Below are positions 42,135 through 54,138 of a stretch of DNA of 64,000 nucleotides, piece by piece. This DNA is from a virus: positions 38,892-102,891 of the IMG/VR virus record IMGVR_UViG_3300044972_002389. One strand, 5' to 3'. Each line of letters opens with the position of its first letter. Position 1 is the first letter of the stretch. The position numbers and the translations under genes were made by a program. A model generated the notes under the pieces. It ran no database searches, was not told the DNA's origin, and saw nothing but the letters and a program-made list of their open reading frames with translations.

Positions 42135-42665
42135 GTGCCAGTTGAACACGAACGCAAAATGCTCCTGCGACCTGAAAGCCCGCAGGAGCTACTACGACAT
42201 TTGAAACGCCAACCCCTTGTGCAAACCTTTGAAATAACACAGGGTTATATCAACAAAAGTGCAAGAATTCGACATGTGGTACCACACAATGGTGATGCAG
42301 AAACGCATTGGTTCACTTTCAAAACCAAGGTTACTGGAAATACAGTGGAGATCGAAACAGAAATTTCAATCCACGACTATCACAAACTTTTCTTGATAGC
42401 TAAACCCGTAATCCACAAAACTCGCTGCAAGTTTCAAGAAGGGTTGAACTGTTGGGACGTGGATTTTTTCAAAAATCCCAAAAGCGGCGACATTTATTTG
42501 AGCATGGCAGAAGTGGAAATGCCAGAATTTGAGTTAGACCTTCCTGAGGTTCATCCTCTCTTACAGGAGAATTTTTGGCGCTGGATTGACGCAAACGACA
42601 AGAGGTTTCAGAACAAGAATCTTAGTAACTATAAAAAAGTTTTGATGAACCTGAAAGGTCTATAA
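42135..42665 (+). CDS. CYTH-domain protein (triphosphate tunnel metalloenzyme)
   Basis: GTG 42135 follows a GGAG site and gives PVEHERKMLL, containing the ExExK signature (E-H-E-R-K) of CYTH/TTM enzymes. ITQGYINKSARIRHV, WFTFKTKV, IHKTRCKF, WDVDFF and SMAEVEMP follow in family order, and the C-terminus has the usual Y/N..L element. Bacterial CYTH proteins hydrolyse inorganic triphosphate or act on thiamine triphosphate or adenylate. It overlaps the metallophosphoesterase gene by one base, so it may share a phosphorus-linked role with it. Confidence 0.8.
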   Translation: MPVEHERKMLLRPESPQELLRHLKRQPLVQTFEITQGYINKSARIRHVVPHNGDAETHWFTFKTKVTGNTVEIETEISIHDYHKLFLIAKPVIHKTRCKFQEGLNCWDVDFFKNPKSGDIYLSMAEVEMPEFELDLPEVHPLLQENFWRWIDANDKRFQNKNLSNYKKVLMNLKGL

Positions 42666-43453
42666 TGCCAAACAGCAAATATCGTAGCATCTTCATAAGC
42701 GATACGCATCTTGGTAGTCGTGCATGCCAAGCTGAGCTACTTGTGGAGTTTTTGAAACACAACTCCTGCCAAAATCTATACCTCGTTGGTGACATATTTG
42801 ATTTGTGGAAATTGAAAAGCAGCAAATTCTGGCCACAAACACATAGCAATGTGGTTCGAAGAATTCTCACTGCGGCCAAGAGAGGCACACAGGTGAGATA
42901 TGTTTTAGGTAATCATGATGAGTACCTTCGAGCATGGATTCCAGACATACACACTTTTGGCAACATTGAGCTGGGCAATGCCTTTGAACATCACTCTGTT
43001 CATGGGCAGAGATTTTTGGTAACACACGGTGATTTGTTTGACGGTGTAATTCGATATCACAAATGGCTTAGCTTGATGGGCGACAAAGCACACAGTTTTT
43101 TACTGTGGTTGAACACACATTTGAATCATATGCGCCGGTTTTTTGGAAAAGATTATTGGAGTCTAAGTTCATACCTTAAAACAAACACGAAACAAGCTGT
43201 TGCATTTATCACCAAATACGAGCAACATGTAGTACAATATGCTCGGGACGAAGCATTTCATGGAGTAATTTGTGGCCATATTCATTCTCCATCGTTGAAA
43301 ACGTTTGAGGATGGGTTTGTGTATATGAATTGTGGTGATTTTTGTGAAACTGTGTCAGCTTTGGTTGAAAACTTTGATGGCTCAATAGAGCTACTGGTTT
43401 ACGACACTGAAACAAAAAGTATGATGACGAAAAACACATGGAGCCTTGAATGA
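42665..43453 (+). CDS. PlcP/LpxH-like metallophosphoesterase
   Basis: The calcineurin-type metal site is complete: D13-T-H15, GDIFD (42-46), GNHD (82-85), THGD (H121) and GHIH (204-207). The family includes LpxH (UDP-2,3-diacylglucosamine pyrophosphatase) and the marine phospholipase C PlcP. The direct ATGA overlap with an Agt-like glycosyltransferase favours PlcP, which converts phospholipid to diacylglycerol during phosphate starvation. The length of 262 fits both. No signal peptide is seen. Confidence 0.82.
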   Translation: MPNSKYRSIFISDTHLGSRACQAELLVEFLKHNSCQNLYLVGDIFDLWKLKSSKFWPQTHSNVVRRILTAAKRGTQVRYVLGNHDEYLRAWIPDIHTFGNIELGNAFEHHSVHGQRFLVTHGDLFDGVIRYHKWLSLMGDKAHSFLLWLNTHLNHMRRFFGKDYWSLSSYLKTNTKQAVAFITKYEQHVVQYARDEAFHGVICGHIHSPSLKTFEDGFVYMNCGDFCETVSALVENFDGSIELLVYDTETKSMMTKNTWSLE

Positions 43454-44442
43454 GACTTGTGATTGTTGATGACAACTGCCAAGACCAAGTGAATGGTGTT
43501 GTAACTACAATGAATGCAGTGAAAAAACAAATGTTTTCTCGAGGCATACAGAATCTCATTCACATCACTCCTGATCAAATGATGTCTATGCCTGCATTGG
43601 TATATCCAGGTGCTCGCATACCATTGAATTTTTGGAATTTGAAAAAAAGAATAGAGGCGTATGAACCCACACACTTGCACATTTGTACAGAAGGTGTGCT
43701 GGGCTTAACTGCTAGGCAATTTTTTCAAAACAAAAATTGGCGCTACACAACTAGCTTTCACACAAGATGGGATCACTATCTCAAGGAAAAATTTGGTGTG
43801 CCGGCCCTCAAAACCATGAGGTATCTCAAATGGTTTCATCAAAATAGTGCAGCAACTTTGGTCAACACTCCTACTATGCAAAGAGAGATGGTGTCGCTTG
43901 GCCTGTCTCAAGCCATCACATGGTCACGGGGAGTCAACACCCAACTGTTTCAATTTAATGACCGCAAGTGTGACACCAAGCCCACATTGTTGAGTGTTGG
44001 TCGAATCAGTGCTGAGAAAAATTTAGAGGTGTTTTGTAGCCTATCAGCAGAAAAATACAATCTAGTGTGTGTTGGTGATGGCCCTGATCTCAAGCGGTTA
44101 CAGAACAAATACCCCTGGGTGACATTTACTGGGCAATTGAGCGGTAAGCAACTGGTACAGCAGTTCCAAAATGCTGACTGCTTTGTTTTCACCAGCAAAA
44201 GTGACACGTTTGGGTTGGTTATGATTGAAAGCATGAGTGTTGGTACTCCTGTTGCAGCATTTCCTGTGCAGGGTCCAATAGATGTTGTAGATGATGGGGT
44301 GACTGGTGTGCTAAATGAGGATATTCAGACAGCTATCTCGCAATGTTTGACATTGAGTCGAAAAACTGTTTTTGAAGGCAGCAAGCGATGGAGTTGGGAA
44401 AAAACAACTGATATCTTTGTTGATACGCTGGTACCCAAATGA
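43450..44442 (+). CDS. GT4 glycosyltransferase, Agt/SqdX-like glycolipid synthase
   Basis: The protein begins MRLVIVDDNCQDQVNGVVTT and has LHICTEGVLGLTAR, TTSFHTRWDHYL, TWSRGVNTQLF, SVGRISAEKN, a VGDGP segment and TFGLVMIESMSVGTPVAAFP, the motif order of the GT4 subgroup that includes Agt and SqdX-like glycolipid synthases, which glycosylate diacylglycerol. Homologues in marine bacteria sit next to PlcP. It overlaps both neighbours by four bases. The sugar donor (UDP-glucose or UDP-glucuronate in known Agt) cannot be read from sequence. Confidence 0.8.
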   Translation: MRLVIVDDNCQDQVNGVVTTMNAVKKQMFSRGIQNLIHITPDQMMSMPALVYPGARIPLNFWNLKKRIEAYEPTHLHICTEGVLGLTARQFFQNKNWRYTTSFHTRWDHYLKEKFGVPALKTMRYLKWFHQNSAATLVNTPTMQREMVSLGLSQAITWSRGVNTQLFQFNDRKCDTKPTLLSVGRISAEKNLEVFCSLSAEKYNLVCVGDGPDLKRLQNKYPWVTFTGQLSGKQLVQQFQNADCFVFTSKSDTFGLVMIESMSVGTPVAAFPVQGPIDVVDDGVTGVLNEDIQTAISQCLTLSRKTVFEGSKRWSWEKTTDIFVDTLVPK

Positions 44443-44722: not shown

Positions 44723-45094
44723 ATGACAGAACCAACTACAAGAAAAATCTACGTGACTTTTCAACGTGAAGGGATTCACAAGTATCCAGCAGCTGGAACT
44801 GACCCCTCCCTTGCAGATGTAAATTTTCTTCAATATCCGCATAGGCACATGTTTCATTTCAAGGTTGGAATTGGCGTCAATCACCTAGACCGAGACATTG
44901 AATTTATCATTTTCAAGCGTTGGCTGGAAAGTCTCTATGGTGATGGTGTGATCCAACTGGATTTCAAAAGCTGCGAGATGATCGCCGAAGACCTCTACGC
45001 CCAAATCTCTGCTCGCTATCCAGGTCGTGCAGTGAGCATTGACGTTAGTGAAGATGGTGAGAATGGGGCTGTGCTAGCCTGGGACGCTGCATAA
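44723..45094 (+). CDS. QueD-like (6-pyruvoyl tetrahydropterin synthase superfamily) protein
   Basis: The 123-residue protein has FQREGIHKYPAA, YPHRHMFHFKVGIGVNH (an HxH pair as in the zinc site of QueD/PTPS), DIEFIIFKRWLE, SCEMIAEDLY (the catalytic-loop region) and a late SIDVSEDGENGAVL with the substrate-binding Glu. This matches a phage family related to QueD. QueD turns dihydroneopterin triphosphate into carboxytetrahydropterin in preQ0 synthesis. The nearby DpdA-like, FolE and QueE genes support that role; by sequence alone the call is moderate. Confidence 0.6.
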   Translation: MTEPTTRKIYVTFQREGIHKYPAAGTDPSLADVNFLQYPHRHMFHFKVGIGVNHLDRDIEFIIFKRWLESLYGDGVIQLDFKSCEMIAEDLYAQISARYPGRAVSIDVSEDGENGAVLAWDAA

Positions 45095-45109
45095 CCACCA
45101 AGGATTGCT

Positions 45110-45171
45110 ATACAAAGTATTTGAGCGCCAGGAGATCGAGATAGGATTGTGCTGGCTCAAATACTTTGTAT
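45110..45171 (+). repeat. 17-bp perfect inverted repeat
   Basis: ATACAAAGTATTTGAGC (45110-45126) and its exact complement (45155-45171) enclose a 28-base loop in the intergenic region after the QueD-like gene. No T-tract follows. It may be an RNA processing site, an operator or a small-RNA hairpin. Confidence 0.6.
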
Positions 45172-45195
45172 TGGCGATAACCTTATAATTTTCAA

Positions 45196-45204
45196 TGCTA
45201 TAAT
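45196..45204 (+). promoter_or_regulatory. Extended -10 promoter element
   Basis: TGC followed by TATAAT (45199-45204) lies 61 bases before the QTMAN-like gene. No good -35 box is seen 16-17 bp upstream; extended -10 promoters can work without one. Confidence 0.35.
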
Positions 45205-45264
45205 TGTCAAAAACTCCTGTGGTTTATATACTATCTCTATTAGAGAATATTTGAAGGATCAAAA

Positions 45265-46353
45265 ATGCCCAATGTATTTGTATGGCCTATCGAGCCATTG
45301 GATAATCGCTACACCCAACAATGGTATCACGAGATTCCGTTGCGGCTCCAAGAAATAGTTGGAAATGCAGCAAAAGTAATCCAACTTGATGGGGTCCAAA
45401 ACACTACAAGCACCACATCTGGTGCATTTTTGAATTTCAGCGACACCAACAGATGGAAAAGCACTCAACTGGTTGAGTTTCTCAACAAACATGATGCTGG
45501 AGAAACAACTCCAAATGATGTGCATTTGTTCACTGACGCTTGGAATCCAGTGATTCTGCAAGTCAAGTATATGAATGATCTCATGGGATATAATTGGAAC
45601 ATACAAGGTTACTGGCATGCTGGAGCATACGATCCCACTGATATCCTTGGATATAAAATGAGCAAACCGTGGCCCTGGCTAGCTGAGCAGGCACTGTTTC
45701 ATGCCTGCGATGAGAATTGGTATGCAACAGATTTTCATAAAAAAATGTTTTTGAGCAATCTGGGCATCAGCAATGAATATCATCACAAAGCCAAAACTAG
45801 TGGGCAACCACACTCTGCTATTGTCAAACAAATGCAAGATATTATGCAGGACAGCCGAGAGAGGAAACAGGGCGTTATTTGGCCACACCGTTACAATCCA
45901 GATAAGCAGCCTGAAATTGCTGAAGATCTCTCCAACAGCATGAAACAGCCTTGGTGTATTACACAAAAAATGAATCTCAACAAAAGCAGTTATTACGAAA
46001 AGCTGGCTGACTGCCAAGTAATTTTTTCCTGTAGCTTGCATGAAAACTTGGGCATCAGTGTAATGGAAGCTGTGCTGGCAGATGTGATCCCAGTGCTGCC
46101 CAATCGGTGCAGCTACAGCGAAATGTATCATCCTGATTTTCTCTATCCCAGCAACTGGACTCAAGATTGGGAAAGTTATCAAACACACAAACAACAATTG
46201 ACTGAATTTATTCAGTACAGATTGAATCACCCCAAAAAGTTCAGTAGGCAGTTGGAAAAGCAAAAGAAAGTGCTCTTACAAAAATATCTTTCAGCTAGCG
46301 TAATGTTTGAAAACATCAGCAACACAGTTGCTAGATCAACCACAGTAAAGTAA
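45265..46353 (+). CDS. QTMAN-like glycosyltransferase (queuosine-tRNA mannosyltransferase family)
   Basis: The 362-residue protein has VIWPHRYNPDKQPE (WPHR at 206-209) and SLHENLGISVMEA (257-269) followed by NRCSYSEMYHPDFLYP. These align with the WPHRW..DK.PE and KHEFFGV.MLEA...P..L.YPE..P elements of human GTDC1/QTMAN, which adds mannose to queuosine in tRNA. The stop lies nine bases before the DpdA-like gene, so the two are almost certainly co-expressed. The natural reading is glycosylation of a deazaguanine, possibly in DNA; other acceptors remain possible. Confidence 0.7.
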   Translation: MPNVFVWPIEPLDNRYTQQWYHEIPLRLQEIVGNAAKVIQLDGVQNTTSTTSGAFLNFSDTNRWKSTQLVEFLNKHDAGETTPNDVHLFTDAWNPVILQVKYMNDLMGYNWNIQGYWHAGAYDPTDILGYKMSKPWPWLAEQALFHACDENWYATDFHKKMFLSNLGISNEYHHKAKTSGQPHSAIVKQMQDIMQDSRERKQGVIWPHRYNPDKQPEIAEDLSNSMKQPWCITQKMNLNKSSYYEKLADCQVIFSCSLHENLGISVMEAVLADVIPVLPNRCSYSEMYHPDFLYPSNWTQDWESYQTHKQQLTEFIQYRLNHPKKFSRQLEKQKKVLLQKYLSASVMFENISNTVARSTTVK

Positions 46354-46362
46354 GATATATCT

Positions 46363-48021
46363 ATGACAAAACTTTCCAGCCCCAACCCACATTTGAAAAA
46401 AATTGATCAAAACATGCAACCTGTGGTGGGTAGAGACATGTGGACCACCAACAAGGACTATGCTATTTTTCTTCCTTCAATCTCAGCGATCTATGTGCGA
46501 CTAGTAAGTCAGCCCAACGCTCGCACAGTCAAGGGGCTGCCGGGTGGATTGCAGGATTTGGACTTTCTGCAAACCAATACCAACTTATTTTATTATCCCA
46601 CTGCACTCTACAGCAGCGGTCACAGTTATTGGGATCCTGCTCAAAGTGATATCCAAGAAGCTATGGTGCAAAAGCGAGACAAAAACGCCTCAGTAATTGT
46701 GGGCGACAGTGGTGGTTATCAGATTGCTACTGGCGTTCTCAAATGGCCTTGGCAGAAAAAAGAAAAGCAAACTGATCAAGACTGGATGAAGGACAAAGAC
46801 GCCATTAGGATGAAAATCCTACGCTGGCTTGAACACACTTGTGACTACAGTATGGTATTAGATGTCCCCACAGGCAGCTTGTTGAAGTTTGGTAACGATC
46901 CCATCACAGGTGAGAACCTACATCCTGGGGTTAAGAACTTTAGAGACTGTCTTGAAAGCAGTATGGAGAATCACAACTTTTTCATCAAAAATCGTCGGGA
47001 AGGTAGTACACAATTTTTGAATGTGTTGCAGGGGCGCAATCAAGAAGAAGGTGACATTTGGTGGGACGTTGTGAAAGATCTTCCTTTTGAAACCTGGGCA
47101 TTCAGTAATGTGCAAGCCAGCAACTTTGCTATAAATCTCCGTCGGATCATTATCATGCGAGATGGCAAGTATTTGGATAACAGAGATTGGATCCATTATC
47201 TAGGCAATGGCAAAATCAAGGCAGGCTGCGCTCTTACTACACTTCAACGAGTGTGGAGAAAGCACATCAACGAGCGTACAACTCTCAGTTACGATGCAGC
47301 AAGTCCTTTTGTGAACGTAGCAAAAGGCAACATCTACTACAGTTGGGAAGTAAGTCCGCAAAGCATTGCATATAAAAACAACTCGTTGCCAGACAAAAAA
47401 GAGCTTAAGGGCAGTCAAGAACTGTTTCAAGACTGGATCAATCGCCACAATCAAAAACATGCTGTTCGCGAAAGCAGCATTGGCAAGCGGATCACCATTG
47501 GTGATATCTGTGTCAAAGGTTATGAAGATCTCAATTTCAAAAAACAAGCTTTTTCACAAAAAGAGTTTGAAAGCTTGTTGTATCAACAAAGCTTGGAAGG
47601 CGTTCATGGCGAGAAGTTTCGCTACAGTGATGAATACAAACATTATCTTATGCATGAGCACACTGACCACGGCAGCGGCATGTTTGATTGGGGCAAGAAA
47701 GAGTTTAAGGACCATGAAAAGTATCAGGTCAAATGGCCCAGCAGCATGGATGGTCTCAGCTATGTGCTGGGCATGAGCCACAATGTTGAGCTTCATATTG
47801 AAGCTATTCAACATGCATGTGCAATGCAAGACCTGCCAATGGAGGAGAGGAAACATCACATCAGCGAAGACTTGATTGAATTTGCTGGGGGACTTTGTGA
47901 AGAGATCTTCACTAGTGAAAAACCCATGCAACTGATTGAAAAACATTCTGCTATGTTAGCCAAAATCACAGGAATGAACGCTGATAACAACATTGTCATG
48001 GATTTTGATGAATTTGAATAG
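46363..48021 (+). CDS. DpdA-like TGT-family DNA 7-deazaguanine transglycosylase
   Basis: TGT-type elements appear in order: VGDSGGYQ with D115, YSMVLDVPTG (D167), NVLQGRNQEEG, WIHYLGNGKIKAG and SYDAASPF with D311 at the place of the TGT nucleophile. The long C-terminal extension (total 552 residues) and the altered DVPTG region are as in phage DpdA, which swaps guanine for preQ0 or a derivative in DNA. tRNA-guanine transglycosylase proper is about 370-400 residues with a different C-terminal zinc site (CxCxxC), which is not seen here. FolE, QueD-like and QueE genes nearby supply the precursor pathway. Confidence 0.8.
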   Translation: MTKLSSPNPHLKKIDQNMQPVVGRDMWTTNKDYAIFLPSISAIYVRLVSQPNARTVKGLPGGLQDLDFLQTNTNLFYYPTALYSSGHSYWDPAQSDIQEAMVQKRDKNASVIVGDSGGYQIATGVLKWPWQKKEKQTDQDWMKDKDAIRMKILRWLEHTCDYSMVLDVPTGSLLKFGNDPITGENLHPGVKNFRDCLESSMENHNFFIKNRREGSTQFLNVLQGRNQEEGDIWWDVVKDLPFETWAFSNVQASNFAINLRRIIIMRDGKYLDNRDWIHYLGNGKIKAGCALTTLQRVWRKHINERTTLSYDAASPFVNVAKGNIYYSWEVSPQSIAYKNNSLPDKKELKGSQELFQDWINRHNQKHAVRESSIGKRITIGDICVKGYEDLNFKKQAFSQKEFESLLYQQSLEGVHGEKFRYSDEYKHYLMHEHTDHGSGMFDWGKKEFKDHEKYQVKWPSSMDGLSYVLGMSHNVELHIEAIQHACAMQDLPMEERKHHISEDLIEFAGGLCEEIFTSEKPMQLIEKHSAMLAKITGMNADNNIVMDFDEFE

Positions 48022-48023
48022 CA

Positions 48024-48044
48024 ATAACACAATTTTTGTGTTAT
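48024..48044 (+). terminator. Short hairpin after the DpdA-like gene
   Basis: ATAACACAA and TTGTGTTAT form a 9-bp stem with a TTT loop and overlap the start of the late-promoter box at 48042. Confidence 0.4.
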
Positions 48045-48049
48045 AAATA
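48042..48049 (+). promoter_or_regulatory. T4-type late promoter TATAAATA
   Basis: Exact late-promoter box, 76 bases before the folE start. The predicted transcript would begin at about 48060 and carry a structured leader. Confidence 0.6.
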
Positions 48050-48124
48050 GTCTGCTACATTACGGTAGCAAATTGGTGGAAACACCCGTTGTGCATAAAC
48101 GACAGATGCTTTGAAAGGAAAGAT
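48050..48124 (+). promoter_or_regulatory. Structured leader upstream of folE
   Basis: Three small stems lie in a row: TGCTAC/GTAGCA around ATTACG, GGTG/CACC around a GAAA tetraloop, and CGTT/AACG around GTGCATA. A good AAAGGAAAG site follows. Such a leader may be a cis-acting RNA; no known riboswitch consensus was matched. Confidence 0.4.
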
Positions 48125-48805
48125 ATGAGCTATAATCGCACAAAATGTGATCCTGAACTGGGTCGCAAAGTACATGAATACCTAGTTTCCAAAGGGGTTG
48201 AAACCCCAACAGTGGAAAATTCCCTAAGCCGCACAGACAAAATTGATATTATTGAACGCAAGTTCAAGGACATCATGGAAACAATGGGCTTGAATCTATC
48301 AGATGATAGTTTGGCTGAAACGCCGACACGAGTGGCTCGCATGTTTATCCAGGAACTTTTTTGGGGTCTTGATTGGGAAGCTTTCCCCAAGTGCACCACT
48401 GTTGCCAACAAAATGGGCTATGATGAAATGGTGTGTGAACGAAATGTCACTGTCAAAAGTGCCTGCGAACATCACTTCATTGTGATTGATGGTGTAGCAA
48501 CTGTGGCTTATATTCCCAAAGAAAAGGTATTGGGCCTAAGCAAGATCAATCGAATTGTCGAATACTTTAGCCGCCGACCACAAATTCAAGAGCGTTTGAC
48601 TGAGCAGATCTTTCATGCAATGGAATATATCCTGGAAACCGATAGCATTGCTGTCGTCATTCACGGCAAGCACTATTGCGTAAGTCATCGTGGCGTTGAA
48701 GATGATTGCAGCAGCACAGTTACCAGCAAGCTGGGTGGTGCGTTCAAACAGGATCCCAGTGCTCGTGCTGAATTTATGAAGATGGTTGACTTGACCTCTC
48801 TCTAA
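48125..48805 (+). CDS. folE: GTP cyclohydrolase I
   Basis: From ATG 48125 (226 residues) the zinc ligands C114, H117 and C185 are in SACEHHF and KHYCVSHRG, with LAETPTRVARMF and LGLSKINRIVEYFSRRPQIQ typical of FolE. The enzyme makes dihydroneopterin triphosphate from GTP, the first step to preQ0 and to folate. With DpdA-like and QueE genes in the window its likely role is phage DNA deazaguanine synthesis. The longer upstream frame (48089) covers the leader and was not used. Confidence 0.92.
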   Translation: MSYNRTKCDPELGRKVHEYLVSKGVETPTVENSLSRTDKIDIIERKFKDIMETMGLNLSDDSLAETPTRVARMFIQELFWGLDWEAFPKCTTVANKMGYDEMVCERNVTVKSACEHHFIVIDGVATVAYIPKEKVLGLSKINRIVEYFSRRPQIQERLTEQIFHAMEYILETDSIAVVIHGKHYCVSHRGVEDDCSSTVTSKLGGAFKQDPSARAEFMKMVDLTSL

Positions 48806-48844
48806 TACAACAGTTATTGTAACAGAGAATTTTTAGGTCAAAAT

Positions 48845-49129
48845 ATGAAAATCATCAACAGTAGATATAGAGAGTGGAATGTGTTGCCCGAGAGTGTTCG
48901 GGCAATACTCATTCACAATCAATTACTCCTTAGCTTCGAAGAGCTTTACAAGCCATCCAACCAACGTTATGAACCCAGTTATGAACTGTTGTTCAATTGG
49001 TGTGTGGAAAATTGCACCAATATTTGGTCCACAGAAAAAATCAGCTATGAGAGTTTTCGGTTCAGTTTTTGGGCTGTGGAAGATCAAGCTCGTTTTATAG
49101 AGTTTTTGCAATCGCCCAGAGGTTCCTGA
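48845..49129 (+). CDS. Small W-WC/FWF-like hypothetical protein
   Basis: The 94-residue protein has LLFNWCVENCTN and FRFSFWAVEDQARFIEFLQ, the same WC...F.F...D...F order as the four tandem proteins at 22.2-23.5 kb. It overlaps the next gene by TGATG. Function unknown. Confidence 0.6.
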   Translation: MKIINSRYREWNVLPESVRAILIHNQLLLSFEELYKPSNQRYEPSYELLFNWCVENCTNIWSTEKISYESFRFSFWAVEDQARFIEFLQSPRGS

Positions 49130-49584
49130 TGGCCTCTAATATTTTTAAGGTAACCAGTGTCTGTCAAGGCAGTGTAACCGGTATCACAGTGAATAACCTT
49201 GGATCAGGTTACACGGTTGGTACGTTACTGACATTTGGTAGCAGTAATGCCAGGCCTACTCAAGCATTGCGAGTTGACAATGACTATGGCGAAACCATCT
49301 TAAGCATCAGCATACAAGGTGAGGTCACTTGGCATCAAAACCATCCCACTAAGGCAGCATCTAAGTTGGTAGACAGTTTGCAGAACTGCATTGACATAAA
49401 AGCCGCTGGGGAAGTAGCTATAGCAAGAAGTTATCTACAAGGGGTTAAAAAGTGTTTGAGGATAGCTAAACAAGTTTCCCATGAGGACCTGATTAGGCCA
49501 TTGGAAACAGAAGTTGAGCATAGAGAAGGGAAACTCACTTGGCAGGCGTTAAACAACAGTTTGGAGAATCAAAATGACACATGA
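49129..49584 (+). CDS. Hypothetical protein, 151 residues
   Basis: ATG 49129 overlaps the preceding stop. The N-terminal part is beta-rich with VTGITVNNLGSGYTVGTLLTFG, a motif common in phage virion proteins; the C-terminal part is helical (DSLQNCIDIKAAGEVAIARS). Not recognised further. Confidence 0.55.
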   Translation: MASNIFKVTSVCQGSVTGITVNNLGSGYTVGTLLTFGSSNARPTQALRVDNDYGETILSISIQGEVTWHQNHPTKAASKLVDSLQNCIDIKAAGEVAIARSYLQGVKKCLRIAKQVSHEDLIRPLETEVEHREGKLTWQALNNSLENQNDT

Positions 49585-50155
49585 AACCAGTAAAGCTGTT
49601 ATGAGAAGGCTCTCTGACAGCAGATTTATTACTCGATATTTCGTAGGCAATGGCATTGACATTGGTGCTGGGGATGACCCAGTCAGCAATTACAAAGATT
49701 TTTTTCCAGGAATGCAGCAGGTGAGAAATTGGGACCTACCTGATGGTGATGCGCAGTTGATGGCAGGTGTAGCTGACAACAGTTTTGATTGGTTACTCAG
49801 CAGCCATTGTCTTGAGCACATGAGAGACCCTACAGAAGCTATGAGAAACTGGAGCAGAATTTTGCAACCAGGTGGGCATATGGTCCTATTGGTTCCAGAT
49901 GAAGACCTTTATGAACAAGGGGTTTTTCCCAGTCGTTTCAACTGGGATCACAAAACTACTTGGACAATTCAAAAAAATCTCAGCTGGAGTCCTGTTTCTG
50001 TAAGCTGCACAAGTTTCCTAGCCAACTTTCCCGAACTCACTATCTTGAAGCTTGAGCTTTTGGATGCCAGTTATCGATACCATATTCAAAATCAAGATCA
50101 AACACTGACACCCATTGGTGAATCAGCTATCGAAATCATTCTTAGGAAAAAGTGA
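49574..50155 (+). CDS. Class I SAM-dependent methyltransferase
   Basis: NGIDIGAGDDP is motif I, DWLLSSHCLEHMRDP is motif II, and NWSRILQPGGHMVLLVPDE is motif III, all typical of Methyltransf_11 proteins. It overlaps the upstream gene by 11 bp. It heads the second glycan block; the substrate is unknown. Confidence 0.78.
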   Translation: MTHETSKAVMRRLSDSRFITRYFVGNGIDIGAGDDPVSNYKDFFPGMQQVRNWDLPDGDAQLMAGVADNSFDWLLSSHCLEHMRDPTEAMRNWSRILQPGGHMVLLVPDEDLYEQGVFPSRFNWDHKTTWTIQKNLSWSPVSVSCTSFLANFPELTILKLELLDASYRYHIQNQDQTLTPIGESAIEIILRKK

Positions 50156-50180
50156 CAATCTTGCACGACTCTGGTATAGT
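50152..50180 (+). promoter_or_regulatory. Sigma70-like promoter
   Basis: GTGACA (50152-50157) and TATAGT (50175-50180), 17 bp apart, precede the GT-like gene at 50201. Confidence 0.5.
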
Positions 50181-50200
50181 TTTGAAATAGTTTTCTTGGG

Positions 50201-50998
50201 TTGATTGTGCTGAAAAACTTCATAACCTATGCCACTGCTGGTGATATAATATACAGTCTTTGTGCAGTAAAAATCCTTGGGGGTGGCAACATTTACCTCA
50301 AATTGGGATACCTTGATGAGTTTTGCCGAAATGTGTTGGGTTGGTACAATCAGCCCTTCACAGGCAGAATAAGTGAAAAAGATTTTCAAAACATTGAAAG
50401 CCTGTTGTTACACCAAAGTTATTTGCATGAAGTGCAAATCTATACCAACCAGCACATTGATTATGATTTAGCAGCTGAAAATTGGAAATTCATATTACCT
50501 TCTGGTTGGCAAGGTAATCAAACTCAAGCCTATGCCTTGGGACTGGGATGGGATATGACTGACGTTCAATTGCAGCACCAGTTGTTGAGAGAGCCTTGGC
50601 TCACACAGGTTAGCCCAATCCTTATCCCCAATCGACCCATAGTAATCAATCGAACACCTAGACATAGAGACAACAGTGCTACACAAAAATGGATGGATTT
50701 TATCAAACAAGGTCTGTGCAAGCAGGCTGTGTTTGTGGGCACACCTAGAGAACATCAAGAGTGGCAAACAGAGTTCAAGGAGACTATTGACTATTTTCCT
50801 ACCCTAGATCTGTTGCATTTGGCACAGGTAATTCAAGGTTGTGAAATGTTCATTGGCAATCAAAGTGCGCCATTGGCTATAGCGATAGGTTTGGGCAAAA
50901 GCTATTGGTGCGAAGGCAATCGGGATACAAAAACACAAACTCCTCTAGGAGGCGGGGGCGATTGTTGGTTTGACCGCATAAATGGAAATTATTTTTGA
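50201..50998 (+). CDS. GT9-like putative glycosyltransferase
   Basis: The start has AGDIIYSLCAVKILGGGNIYL, as in GT9-like proteins, and the C-terminal EMFIGNQSAPLAIAIGLGK matches the family's donor-side helix (FIG..S....A.A.G). The start is TTG 50201 or GTG 50207. It lies in a block with GT34-like and GT17-like genes. Confidence 0.6.
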   Translation: MIVLKNFITYATAGDIIYSLCAVKILGGGNIYLKLGYLDEFCRNVLGWYNQPFTGRISEKDFQNIESLLLHQSYLHEVQIYTNQHIDYDLAAENWKFILPSGWQGNQTQAYALGLGWDMTDVQLQHQLLREPWLTQVSPILIPNRPIVINRTPRHRDNSATQKWMDFIKQGLCKQAVFVGTPREHQEWQTEFKETIDYFPTLDLLHLAQVIQGCEMFIGNQSAPLAIAIGLGKSYWCEGNRDTKTQTPLGGGGDCWFDRINGNYF

Positions 50999-51009
50999 TC
51001 GGGCAACAC

Positions 51010-51702
51010 ATGTATGGACTGCTGGTTGTTTACAACAACAATTTCTCAGAACTTTCAAAAATAACCTTGGACAAAAACAAAAAGCTGTATGCTCAGAGAC
51101 ACAATTATCATCTGTTTGAAAAAACCACTTGGACCAGTCACTTTGACAGAATCCATGCGGTGTTGGAACTTTTTGACACACACCCACATCTCAGTTGGCT
51201 TTGGTATACTGATACTGATGTTTTGATCACCAACTTCAAAACAACCATACAAGAAAAAACTAGTGACACACATGATTTACTCATCTCAACTGATGTAAAT
51301 GGCCTCAATACAGGCAGCATTTTATTTCGTAACTCAAGTCAGTGTCGGTCATTACTGCACGAGTTATTGAAAGTGGAAAAAGAAGCTTTGCAACATTGGG
51401 ACTCAGAACAGTGGGCATTGAATCAGTTATTTGGGTTCCCCGGCACACACCACCCAAGTTACCCGCAAGGCGAGTCTTTGAAAATTCCACATCCTTGGGA
51501 CAAAACGATTCAAGTTGTGCCTCAACGAATGTTAAACAGCTATGATTACAACCTATATCCTTATATACCAAAACCTGCCTTGGACAAACTGTTGACAGAT
51601 GGCTCATGGCAGCCAGGCGATTGGGCTGTGCATTTTCCTGGTGTAAGTGAATCAGAAAAAATAAATTTGTGCAACAGTTGGCAAAACAAAATACTGTTGT
51701 AA
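51010..51702 (+). CDS. GT34-like glycosyltransferase (GMA12/MNN10 family)
   Basis: WLWYTDTDVLITN contains the DXD metal-binding motif and DVNGLNTGSILFRNS is the family's NTG segment. GDWAVHFPGV near the end is the third family motif. GT34 enzymes are galactosyl- or mannosyltransferases. ATG 51010 is preferred to TTG 50995. A phage surface-glycan role is inferred. Confidence 0.75.
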   Translation: MYGLLVVYNNNFSELSKITLDKNKKLYAQRHNYHLFEKTTWTSHFDRIHAVLELFDTHPHLSWLWYTDTDVLITNFKTTIQEKTSDTHDLLISTDVNGLNTGSILFRNSSQCRSLLHELLKVEKEALQHWDSEQWALNQLFGFPGTHHPSYPQGESLKIPHPWDKTIQVVPQRMLNSYDYNLYPYIPKPALDKLLTDGSWQPGDWAVHFPGVSESEKINLCNSWQNKILL

Positions 51703-51720
51703 CTGCCAAAGGACAAAAAA

Positions 51721-52593
51721 TTGAAAGTATATGATTGTTTTACTTTTTTCAATGAGTTAGATCTACTTGAAATACGCCTTGAAGAGCTATGGGACGTTGT
51801 TGACTATTTTGTGTTAGCTGAATCAAATGTTACACATACTGGCATGTTCAAGCCCTTGTATTTTGATCTAAACAAACAACGCTTTGAAAAATATGCCCAG
51901 AAAATTCGTCACATTGTTGTTGATGACATGCCTGGCGGTGAAGACAACCTTTGGTTCAGAGAAAATCATCAACGCAGATGTCTTGCTCGAGGACTAGGAG
52001 ACAAAAGCCCTGATGATTTGATCATTGTAACTGATGCCGATGAAATTCCTCGAGCATCAGTAGTTTCTAGCATAAAACATGATAGTCAGCACACTCGTTG
52101 GATTTTGTTTGCTCCACAGTATTTGTATAAATTAAATTACATGAGAATCAAAACCACAAATGGGGTAGATTGGCAAGCTGGTCCAAGTATTATTGTCTCA
52201 AAGTCTCAAGACTTTACTGACCCTCAAACAGAACGAACATTTACGTTTCCATGGGTTGGGTTGCCTGATGGCACAGCCTTTGTTGCGCATGGAGGTTGGC
52301 ATTGGAGCTCATTGGGAAACAATCAGCATTGTATTCAAAAGATCAACAGTTTTGTTCATACAAATGAGAATATACCTGAAATAGTCGAAAACTTTGACAT
52401 TGACAGATTTATAGCCACAAAAGGTAGCCATCACACCCCAGGACAGTTTTTTGAAACAGTGGAATTGAACAACTATTTTCCCAATTTTGTCTTATCCAAT
52501 GCACAAAAATTCTCGCAACATGTTGCACCTGGGTTAGGTGTCAAAACAAGTGATATCTATCCTTTTGATACCCAACACACTTACAGAACATAA
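51721..52593 (+). CDS. GT17-like glycosyltransferase (beta-1,4 GlcNAc-transferase family)
   Basis: YDCFTFFNELDLLEIRLEEL, VVDYFVLAESNVTHTGMFKP and NHQRRCLARGL then DDLIIVTDADEIPR are the conserved blocks of GT17 (MGAT3-like) enzymes, which appear in marine phages and algal viruses. The start is TTG 51721. Donor and acceptor are not predicted. Confidence 0.82.
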   Translation: MKVYDCFTFFNELDLLEIRLEELWDVVDYFVLAESNVTHTGMFKPLYFDLNKQRFEKYAQKIRHIVVDDMPGGEDNLWFRENHQRRCLARGLGDKSPDDLIIVTDADEIPRASVVSSIKHDSQHTRWILFAPQYLYKLNYMRIKTTNGVDWQAGPSIIVSKSQDFTDPQTERTFTFPWVGLPDGTAFVAHGGWHWSSLGNNQHCIQKINSFVHTNENIPEIVENFDIDRFIATKGSHHTPGQFFETVELNNYFPNFVLSNAQKFSQHVAPGLGVKTSDIYPFDTQHTYRT

Positions 52594-52609
52594 CAAGGGA
52601 GAAATAAAA

Positions 52610-53194
52610 ATGGACATGAGCCTTGAACAAATGCTGGCCCAAACAGGTAAGCGCCAAGCCAGCTTTGAAATAATGATAAATCATCTAAAACAAACTGCCA
52701 ATCCGTTGATTGTTGAAACTGGATGCAGTCGCAGCCTACAACATGGATTCCACGGTGATGGTTTCAGTACAATAATTTTTGACAAGTATGTGGAAACTTT
52801 TTCTGGGCAACTATTGACAGTTGATTTGGATGAGTCTCATGTGAATTTTTCTCGCTCACAAGTGTGCTCAAACACACAAATTTTTTGTCAAGACAGTGTT
52901 GTTTGGTTACGAAATTTAAGTCAAAAGTTGCAGGCAGAAAACCGTCAGATAAACTTACTCTATCTCGACAGTTTTGATTTTTACCCAGACAATCCTCATC
53001 CCAGTAGTTTTCATCATATGAAAGAATTGACTGCAATTTGGAGTTGTTTGGGTCCAGGCACAATGATTGCTGTGGACGATAATTTTGGTGACTCTTCTTC
53101 TCGGATAGGCAAAGGCAAGTATGTGGAAGAATTCTTTCAAAACATTTGTGTGCCGCTTGTATATGACGGCTATCAACTAGTTTGGCAGCTTTAA
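52610..53194 (+). CDS. Rossmann-fold methyltransferase-like protein
   Basis: ATG 52610 is preceded by AAGGGAGAA. The protein has LIVETGCSRS at motif I, LLTVDLDESHV at motif II, INLLYLDSFDFYP and a late GTMIAVDDNFGD, as in Methyltransf_24-type or cephalosporin-hydroxylase-like enzymes. The substrate is unknown; it closes the second glycan block. Confidence 0.68.
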   Translation: MDMSLEQMLAQTGKRQASFEIMINHLKQTANPLIVETGCSRSLQHGFHGDGFSTIIFDKYVETFSGQLLTVDLDESHVNFSRSQVCSNTQIFCQDSVVWLRNLSQKLQAENRQINLLYLDSFDFYPDNPHPSSFHHMKELTAIWSCLGPGTMIAVDDNFGDSSSRIGKGKYVEEFFQNICVPLVYDGYQLVWQL

Positions 53195-53256
53195 CACAAG
53201 CTCCTTGACTTGTCTGCATGGTTACAACAAAATTATAACAAATAGGAGAATCTAGG

Positions 53257-54138
53257 ATGTTTGGACGCAATGAGCTGGTTGGTGAACGTTACTTCAAAAA
53301 TGCAGAAGATGAACTTTTTGTAACTAGTATTTTCACCACATTTCAGGGAGAAGGCCCATATCGAGGCGAGCCTGCTGTGTTTGTTAGGCTAGCCAAGTGC
53401 AATCTCCAATGTTCATTTTGTGATACTTTCTTTGATGATGGTGATTGGATGACAATCCAAGAGATTGACTCCAAAATCGCAAAGAGCATCTCTGACAGCT
53501 TCAATGGTAATACCCCTCTTTGGGCTGATGTTGTGTATGGGGGTCCAGGAAGTGATCCTGTAAAGAAACGCAACATGGTTCTCGTGCTTACTGGCGGTGA
53601 GCCCATGCTACAAAAAAACATTGTTCCATTTTTAGAGCATATGAATACCCAGTTTGCCCGAACGCAAATTGAAAGCAACGGCACTATCGTCCAGAACATT
53701 CCTCAGGAAACTACCTTAGTAGTAAGTCCCAAGTGCAGTGAAAAAAATGGCCGTCCGGTGAAATATCTTGAACCACGAGCAGAAATGCTAGGAAGAGCAG
53801 ACTGTTTGAAATTTGTAATGAGTGCAGATTCTGATACTCCTTACAATAATGTCCCTGACTGGGCACACAACTGGCGGGACCAAACTGGTAAGAAGGTGTT
53901 TGTAAGTCCCATGAACATTTACAACCATGAACCGCAGAAAAGCAAGCAAATTCGAGCTGAGAAAAATCAAATTAGTCTTGAAGAACGCAGTATTGTGGAT
54001 GAAGTTGTGAGTTTTTGGACGCCAGGGCTTATCAATATGCAAACTGCTCAAGCCAATCACGAACACGCTGCTCGTTATTGTGTCCAGAACGGATTCGTCT
54101 TTAATATGCAATTGCATTTATTTGGAAGTTACGCCTAA
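53257..54138 (+). CDS. queE: 7-carboxy-7-deazaguanine synthase
   Basis: The radical-SAM motif CNLQCSFC (C48, C52, C55) uses the CxxxCxxC spacing, after FTTFQGEGPYRGEPAVF, which is the QueE N-terminal signature. VLVLTGGEPMLQKN is the radical-SAM GGE motif. The length of 293 is longer than the usual 210-230 because of inserts. QueE converts carboxytetrahydropterin to 7-carboxy-7-deazaguanine. It needs a [4Fe-4S] cluster, possibly supplied with help from the Mrp-like protein. A TAGGAG site precedes the ATG. Confidence 0.9.
   Translation: MFGRNELVGERYFKNAEDELFVTSIFTTFQGEGPYRGEPAVFVRLAKCNLQCSFCDTFFDDGDWMTIQEIDSKIAKSISDSFNGNTPLWADVVYGGPGSDPVKKRNMVLVLTGGEPMLQKNIVPFLEHMNTQFARTQIESNGTIVQNIPQETTLVVSPKCSEKNGRPVKYLEPRAEMLGRADCLKFVMSADSDTPYNNVPDWAHNWRDQTGKKVFVSPMNIYNHEPQKSKQIRAEKNQISLEERSIVDEVVSFWTPGLINMQTAQANHEHAARYCVQNGFVFNMQLHLFGSYA

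Follow-up and report, generated by a model that had tools for sequence, protein, structure and literature searches.

A QTMAN-related glycosyltransferase encoded beside a DpdA-like transglycosylase: a candidate module for glycosylated 7-deazaguanine in phage DNA

Results

The window analyzed here comprised 64,000 nucleotides (bases 38,892 to 102,891) of the IMG/VR virus record IMGVR_UViG_3300044972_002389, which totals 328,603 bases and may itself be a fragment. Five genes found in this window probably constitute a module for DNA hypermodification in which a 7-deazaguanine that derives from 7-carboxy-7-deazaguanine (CDG) is glycosylated. All lay on the + strand (window positions are used for all gene coordinates). 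They encode a small QueD-like protein (44723..45094; 123 amino acids, phrog_17812), a GT-B glycosyltransferase (GT) related to QTMAN (45265..46353; 362 amino acids), a predicted DpdA-like DNA-guanine transglycosylase (46363..48021; 552 amino acids, with a barrel of the tRNA-guanine transglycosylase [TGT] type in its model), the GTP cyclohydrolase I FolE (48125..48805), and a QueE-like radical SAM 7-carboxy-7-deazaguanine synthase (53257..54138). The positions, the strand, and the 9 bases between the GT stop and the start of the DpdA-like gene agreed with a first-pass annotation of the sequence. FolE and QueE, both named in that annotation, were clear family members in Pfam, PHROG, and NCBIfam searches (PF01227, 1.8e-60; phrog_2076, 9.9e-50); the FolE start was taken as the ATG at 48125, and the listed open reading frame (ORF) opens earlier, at a TTG at 48089. 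Sequence profile searches of the PDB with the GT, the DpdA-like protein, and the small protein returned no true relatives; relatives of these three could be recognized only by comparing folds and by matching profiles against families built for the purpose. Gene identities were established by these computations at the level of fold or family.

The only Pfam match of the GT was a weak one to glycosyltransferase domains (PF00534, 0.0058). Its structural model (predicted local distance difference test [pLDDT], 93.7) had a GT-B fold and matched retaining GT4-type enzymes over its whole length, with Z scores of 21.1 to 26.2 to sucrose-phosphate synthase (26.2), MshA (24.7), BshA (24.6), and others, at ~10% identity. 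No QTMAN structure was among the matches listed for the model, which has no bearing on relatedness. Residues R209 and K214 and an E-x7-E pair (E260 and E268), presumably the donor-binding or catalytic residues expected of GT4 enzymes, were invariant in 45 of 45 aligned homologues.

Relatedness to QTMAN was examined by comparing 45 members of the phage GT family with 14 QTMAN_N proteins (from 14 of 150 genomes, one phylum sample) and with generic GT4 enzymes. The latter were 30 picks from 8 genomes, of which 7 were wrong reading frames and 23 were confirmed; two of the confirmed picks were the same ORF, leaving 22 distinct. The GT family profile matched the QTMAN profile with a probability of 98.5 (E = 1.7e-15), versus 48 for the best generic GT4 profile. 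A QTMAN hidden Markov model (HMM) scored 28.4 to 57.9 bits on all 45 phage GTs and at most 13.1 bits on the 23 confirmed GT4 enzymes; 4 of the 30 picks passed an E of 1e-3 (best, 13.1 bits). Conversely, a phage GT HMM scored all 14 QTMANs at 27.4 to 50.1 bits and gave the confirmed GT4 set no more than 4.2 bits. The HMM scores in both directions thus separated the GT and QTMAN from the 23 GT4 enzymes, and assignment as an ordinary GT4 enzyme was rejected. The QTMAN match spanned GT residues 148 to 296, the donor half, and held the WPHR..DK-type and LHE..G...EA-type elements on which the first-pass annotation had based its comparison with QTMAN. No match to QTMAN_N (PF12038) at E ≤ 10 was found in the whole record. 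On these sequence comparisons, the GT family is related to QTMAN through its donor half.

No Pfam match (E ≤ 1) and no PHROG or NCBIfam match (E ≤ 0.1) was found for the DpdA-like protein, and a profile search of the whole 328.6-kb record found no TGT family match. An AlphaFold2 model was built from 32 window and IMG/VR homologues (pLDDT, 82; predicted TM-score, 0.81). Its top Foldseek match was the DNA preQ0 insertase DpdA (7ui4; E = 4.8e-5), followed by TGT and QTRT1, in support of the earlier description of this gene as a DpdA-like TGT. In a second structure comparison, the 50 best matches listed were all TGTs (Z, 18.3 to 19.4), superposed over ~300 residues with a root mean square deviation near 5. 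The DSGG and FDC segments of TGTs carry the catalytic aspartates (the DSGG motif Asp and the nucleophile Asp). In the DpdA-like protein, D115 (DSGG) and D311 (YDAASP, which reads SFDCASP in the family consensus) were in register with the TGT segments DSGGFQ and FDCVMPT (alignment probability, 26), and both were invariant in the 32-sequence alignment. TGTs also carry a zinc site, CxCxxC...H; no CxCxxC was seen by eye in the DpdA-like alignment, and H473 was invariant. The family profile resembled DpdA2 (probability, 88.6; E = 2.6e-6) more closely than bacterial TGT (26; E = 7e-4). Judged by the model, the protein is DpdA-like and a member of the TGT superfamily, and it would exchange bases in DNA.

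The linkage of GT, DpdA, and the small protein was tight, with shuffled gene order and two DpdA subfamilies. Anchored scans used the best 80 matches each and therefore favor near relatives; loci were collapsed at ≥75% identity (GT anchor) or ≥80% identity (DpdA and small-protein anchors), and flank-limited counts omit truncated loci, keeping those with ≥7 kb (GT anchor) or ≥8 kb (DpdA anchor) on both sides. Across the 38 fully flanked loci among 66 non-redundant GT-anchored loci, a DpdA type was present in 34, the small protein in 33, FolE in 29, QueE in 26, QueD in 11, and QueC in 1 (by a local model that rests on two sequences, for which the Pfam PF06508 search below is the better test). Without the flank limit, DpdA was present in 55 and the small protein in 54 of the 66. 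Because this set was chosen by GT, partner-anchored scans were added. All 18 fully flanked, non-redundant DpdA-anchored loci carried both GT and the small protein, 16 carried FolE, and 15 carried QueE; GT was present in 31 of 37 loci without the flank limit, and 78 of the 80 DpdA-anchored loci were on contigs outside the GT-scan sets. Anchoring on the small protein (78 of 80 loci; L050 and L051 were left out) placed GT in 18 of 19 fully flanked loci, the exception having a short TGT-like protein, and in 28 of 31 without the flank limit. Matching stretches in IMG/VR, with redundancy kept, numbered ~600 or more in each of the GT and DpdA scans, and nearly all were relatives (at least 599 for GT and at least 598 for DpdA).

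Carriers among cultured phages included PA5oct, Paride, Callisto, ACP17, X1, and Phosso. The gene order was DpdA-GT-small protein...QueE in PA5oct, QueD-FolE-DpdA2 type-GT-small protein-QueE in Acidovorax phage ACP17, FolE-GT-DpdA2 type-small protein-QueE in Xanthomonas phage X1, and small protein-GT-FolE-QueE in Sinorhizobium phage Phosso. The DpdA2-type partners were homologous to Vibrio phage nt-1 ORF390, which lies between FolE and QueC and is taken to be the DpdA2 of PMC6884629. A DNA polymerase homologue lay in the block of the module in many loci.

In cellular genome records, a DpdA type was near GT in 22 of 24 loci, the exceptions being a 4.6-kb contig (L117) and a partial match (L138). 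Some of the 24, which also had FolE and QueE, may represent phage contigs placed in a host bin. Loci L121 to L136 (Magnetospirillum, Devosia, Shimia, Azospirillum, and others) held GT and DpdA, often with a Vut_1-like gene or the small protein, and many of them had a short gene resembling a tyrosine recombinase by eye; bacterial or mobile-element DNA modification is possible for these. Nine alphaproteobacterial loci had a further gene family nearby, the one scanned member of which gave a sub-cutoff match to Vut_1 (YhhQ type).

The profile of the small protein matched QueD with a probability of 89% in broader sets (seven negative controls, ≤0.8%) and of 55.6% against phage QueDs alone. H40, H42, and E85 were invariant and H19 was nearly so; H19, H40, and H42 are the presumed zinc ligands. 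The catalytic Cys of QueD sits four residues before HxH. The aligned residue of the small protein is Leu36, which was Leu in 31 of 31 aligned sequences. The QueD-like label of the first-pass annotation therefore stands as distant kinship by profile, and a role as the pathway QueD was rejected, given the lack of a PF01242 match and of the catalytic Cys and the presence of a separate QueD in some carriers (17 of 66 GT loci, e.g., ACP17, with PF01242 at 2.3e-13). The small protein probably does not serve as the 6-carboxytetrahydropterin (CPH4) synthase that the pathway requires. From its sequence, it likely acts in another way on a pathway intermediate, and one candidate reaction is CDG decarboxylation (DpdL); DpdL is the CDG decarboxylase reportedly described by Cui in 2023.

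The small protein was present in 26 phage records and was more alike between named phages than GT or DpdA. In seven regions read, it lay within ~3 kb of FolE, and the family HMM detected no GT in six of these; no FolE was noted in the 17.5-kb stretch read from PA5oct. In Cellulophaga phage phiST, it was beside FolE, QueD, and QueE, which fits DpdL without proving it. The short protein of phiST was TGT-like by motif, with weak profile matches (58 against the window DpdA family and 20.5 against TGT). Five GT-less phages encoded the small protein with a short TGT-like protein of ~260 to 290 amino acids (longer in L184) that had DNSG/DNGA motifs and weak profile support (L183 12810-13589, L186 9417-10289, L188 9821-10615, L189 9686-10543, and L184 12083-13351); this may be the DpdA3 reportedly described by Cui in 2023. 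The small protein was also observed as the C terminus of a longer protein in Vibrio phage Bakedbeans (L185 8212-9363) and Chryseobacterium phage MA9V-3 (L188 8467-9348), the N terminus of the latter resembling an HNH homing endonuclease by eye.

QueC, which the first-pass annotation had not found in the window, was sought with PF06508 across related genomes. Among 25 related records, which include near-duplicates of each other or of the virus of the window, 18 had no match, 7 had some match, and 3 exceeded the cutoff: Vibrio phage 2.275.O (no GT found), PhiXhv-12, and G010 (in pieces). No match was found in ACP17, PA5oct, or Phosso, and X1 had a weak one. Because the phage pathway often ends at CDG, without QueC, the base is most likely CDG or a derivative of it; a host QueC could supply the missing step.

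Candidate nucleotide-sugar genes accompanied GT in some loci. GalE exceeded its NCBIfam cutoff and overlapped or abutted the GT gene in L066 and L100, and this epimerase family occurred in 8 of 66 loci (five members scanned). A Gfo/Idh and ADH pair was found in 7 of 66 loci, and a family with a sub-cutoff match to a nucleotide-sugar dehydrogenase (one member scanned) was found in 6 of 66. Mannose is a guess by analogy for the virus of the window, because QTMAN transfers mannose (PMC12518689); other sugars are likely in other phages. Xanthomonas phage PhiXhv-12 (L028 5609-9695) had consecutive genes for Gat-QueC, a PIG-L deacetylase, a QTMAN-related GT, and a Gfo/Idh oxidoreductase, with a weak, sub-cutoff TGT match elsewhere in the record; perhaps N-acetylglucosamine is deacetylated there on an archaeosine-type base.

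Discussion

In the proposed module, FolE and QueE, with a QueD from the host or from the phage where present, would make CDG from GTP. The DpdA-like transglycosylase would then swap guanines in phage DNA for the deazaguanine base, and the QTMAN-related GT would move a sugar from a nucleotide-sugar donor onto the modified base, a step analogous to those of T4 glucosyltransferases on hydroxymethylcytosine and of QTMAN on queuosine in tRNA. The small QueD-like protein, which lacks the catalytic Cys, would perform a dedicated step, most likely on CDG, and the bulky base could shield the DNA from host nucleases. A more specific version is possible but doubtful: a glycosylated 7-deazaguanine made without preQ0, carrying its sugar on the 7-carboxyl of CDG, or through a C-C bond at C7 if the small protein decarboxylates CDG, in many jumbo phages and in bacterial, partly mobile, loci.

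A sugar on deazaguanine in DNA, as suggested in the first-pass annotation, is the best reading because the GT falls on the QTMAN side and because partner-anchored scans link it to a DNA-type transglycosylase; the GT-QTMAN kinship and the GT-DpdA linkage were upheld, and the likeness to QTMAN was confined to the donor half, with the reaction itself put forward by inference. Several observations weigh against this reading. The N-terminal (acceptor) half of the GT gave no alignment with QTMAN (probability, 1.6); with the donor half alone matching, the donor side is therefore QTMAN-like and the acceptor side is the GT's own. QTMAN itself matched ordinary GT4 profiles (up to probability 98.9), so the phage GTs are a QTMAN-side branch within GT4 and not a separate superfamily. 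For the DpdA-like model, the match to 7ui4 was distant (TM-scores, 0.33/0.42), 7ui4 was not among the 50 matches listed in the second comparison, and the profile match to bacterial TGT was weak. PF01242 had no match in the small protein or, at E ≤ 10, in the whole record, and PF06508 had none in the whole 328.6-kb record, possibly a fragment. CDG and preQ0 both lack the hydroxyl that QTMAN uses, and nucleotide-sugar genes were found only in a minority of loci. The linkage had exceptions: DpdA was ~171 kb from GT in Phosso, no DpdA was within 8 kb of GT in L061, L062, or L028, and Vibrio phage 2.275.O had a DpdA relative and no GT in the stretch read or among the GT matches. A conserved replication block common to many of these phages also inflates co-occurrence.

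The GT could be an active sugar transferase whose target is a structural protein of the phage, a surface glycan, or a free metabolite, the locus reflecting operon inheritance. A sugar-related role separate from the base is plausible because the block in the window also holds three other predicted glycosyltransferases (GT4, GT34, and GT17), together with a weak GT9-like gene and a methyltransferase-like gene, and CDG offers no obvious acceptor hydroxyl. This explanation is nevertheless unlikely, since the linkage persists when gene order changes, with either DpdA subfamily, and in cellular loci, the smallest set being a Vut_1-like gene with GT and DpdA, whereas the GT34, GT17, GT9-like, and second GT4 genes of the window fell in no gene cluster common to ≥4 of the 66 module loci. 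That the GT-B protein is no longer a transferase and serves DpdA as a structural or DNA-guiding partner is very improbable: near-obligatory pairing with DpdA would also fit a complex, but the four presumed donor-binding or catalytic residues are invariant in all 45 homologues, and nucleotide-sugar genes lie beside GT in some loci.

Modification of tRNA, with the DpdA-like protein a divergent phage TGT and the GT a phage QTMAN, would accord with the action of QTMAN on tRNA and with the fact that most solved TGT-fold enzymes, which filled the matches listed in the second structure comparison, are tRNA enzymes. The top Foldseek match is nevertheless a DNA insertase, the profile is nearer to DpdA2, and in related loci the GT is partnered by DpdA2-type enzymes, whose family modifies DNA. 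In many loci, the genes share their block with a DNA polymerase homologue. No tRNA genes were found in the window, and homologues of QueA, QueG, and QueH, which carry out the final steps of queuosine synthesis, were not found in the viruses analyzed by PMC6884629, in the portion of that paper used here. A tRNA target is thus quite improbable, and glycosylation of a deazaguanine in DNA is retained as the preferred interpretation.

The proposed module resembles known phage 7-deazaguanine modification (DpdA and DpdA2) in that one block combines FolE and QueE with a DpdA-type enzyme of the TGT fold, and some carriers use DpdA2-type enzymes related to nt-1 ORF390. It differs in that a QTMAN-related GT and a QueD-like protein without the catalytic Cys are added and QueC is usually missing. 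The DNA of phage nt-1 contains dPreQ0, dADG, and dG+ at a low level, and these modifications and dPreQ1 carry no sugar as described in the part of PMC6884629 used here. The GT resembles QTMAN (GTDC1) in its donor half, and both would act on 7-deazaguanine in nucleic acid; the GT differs in lacking QTMAN_N, in its unaligned N-terminal half, in its genomic partner DpdA, and in its presumed substrate, DNA. The small protein is distantly similar to QueD (PF01242) by profile, its His-x-His and Glu aligning with those of QueD, and differs in having Leu at the catalytic Cys position. The substrate of T4 alpha- and beta-glucosyltransferases is 5-hydroxymethylcytosine, a pyrimidine that already offers a hydroxyl. 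The likeness drawn to these enzymes is one of action, namely, the addition of a sugar to a modified DNA base after replication (PMC13216743). Full-text searches of an open-access collection turned up no report of glycosylated deazaguanine in DNA, which falls short of showing absence because the collection lacks central papers of the field.

If the interpretation is true, DNA would carry a glycosylated purine, with deazaguanine serving as a handle for glycosylation as hydroxymethylcytosine does, and restriction, CRISPR, and sequencing chemistry could all be evaded through a bulky guanine mark. Such a trait would be widespread, because the GT and DpdA scans each gave ~600 or more matching stretches. 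The GT-DpdA pair in cultured phages makes the proposal directly testable there, and two proteins, the GT and the small QueD-like protein, are pointed out for the biochemistry of 7-deazaguanine hypermodification. The association of GT with DpdA would need explaining even without a sugar-bearing deazaguanosine in virion DNA.

Additional observations

Vibrio phage 2.275.O (L029 7905-14931) encoded a DpdA of the same family next to a gene that matched amidoligase marginally and to genes for QueF, a YhhQ-like transporter, QueC, and FolE; the same base may be decorated differently there. A phosphoribosyltransferase family (one member scanned) was present in 30 of the 66 module loci (e.g., L030 7827-8324) and could salvage the guanine set free when bases are exchanged; an annotated xanthine-guanine phosphoribosyltransferase was encoded at L187 4450-4911. 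In the window, further sugar-type genes lay in the same block as the module, at 42665-44442 and 49574-53194: a metallophosphoesterase and GT4 pair, GT9-like (weak; E = 0.09), GT34, and GT17 glycosyltransferases, and a methyltransferase-like gene.

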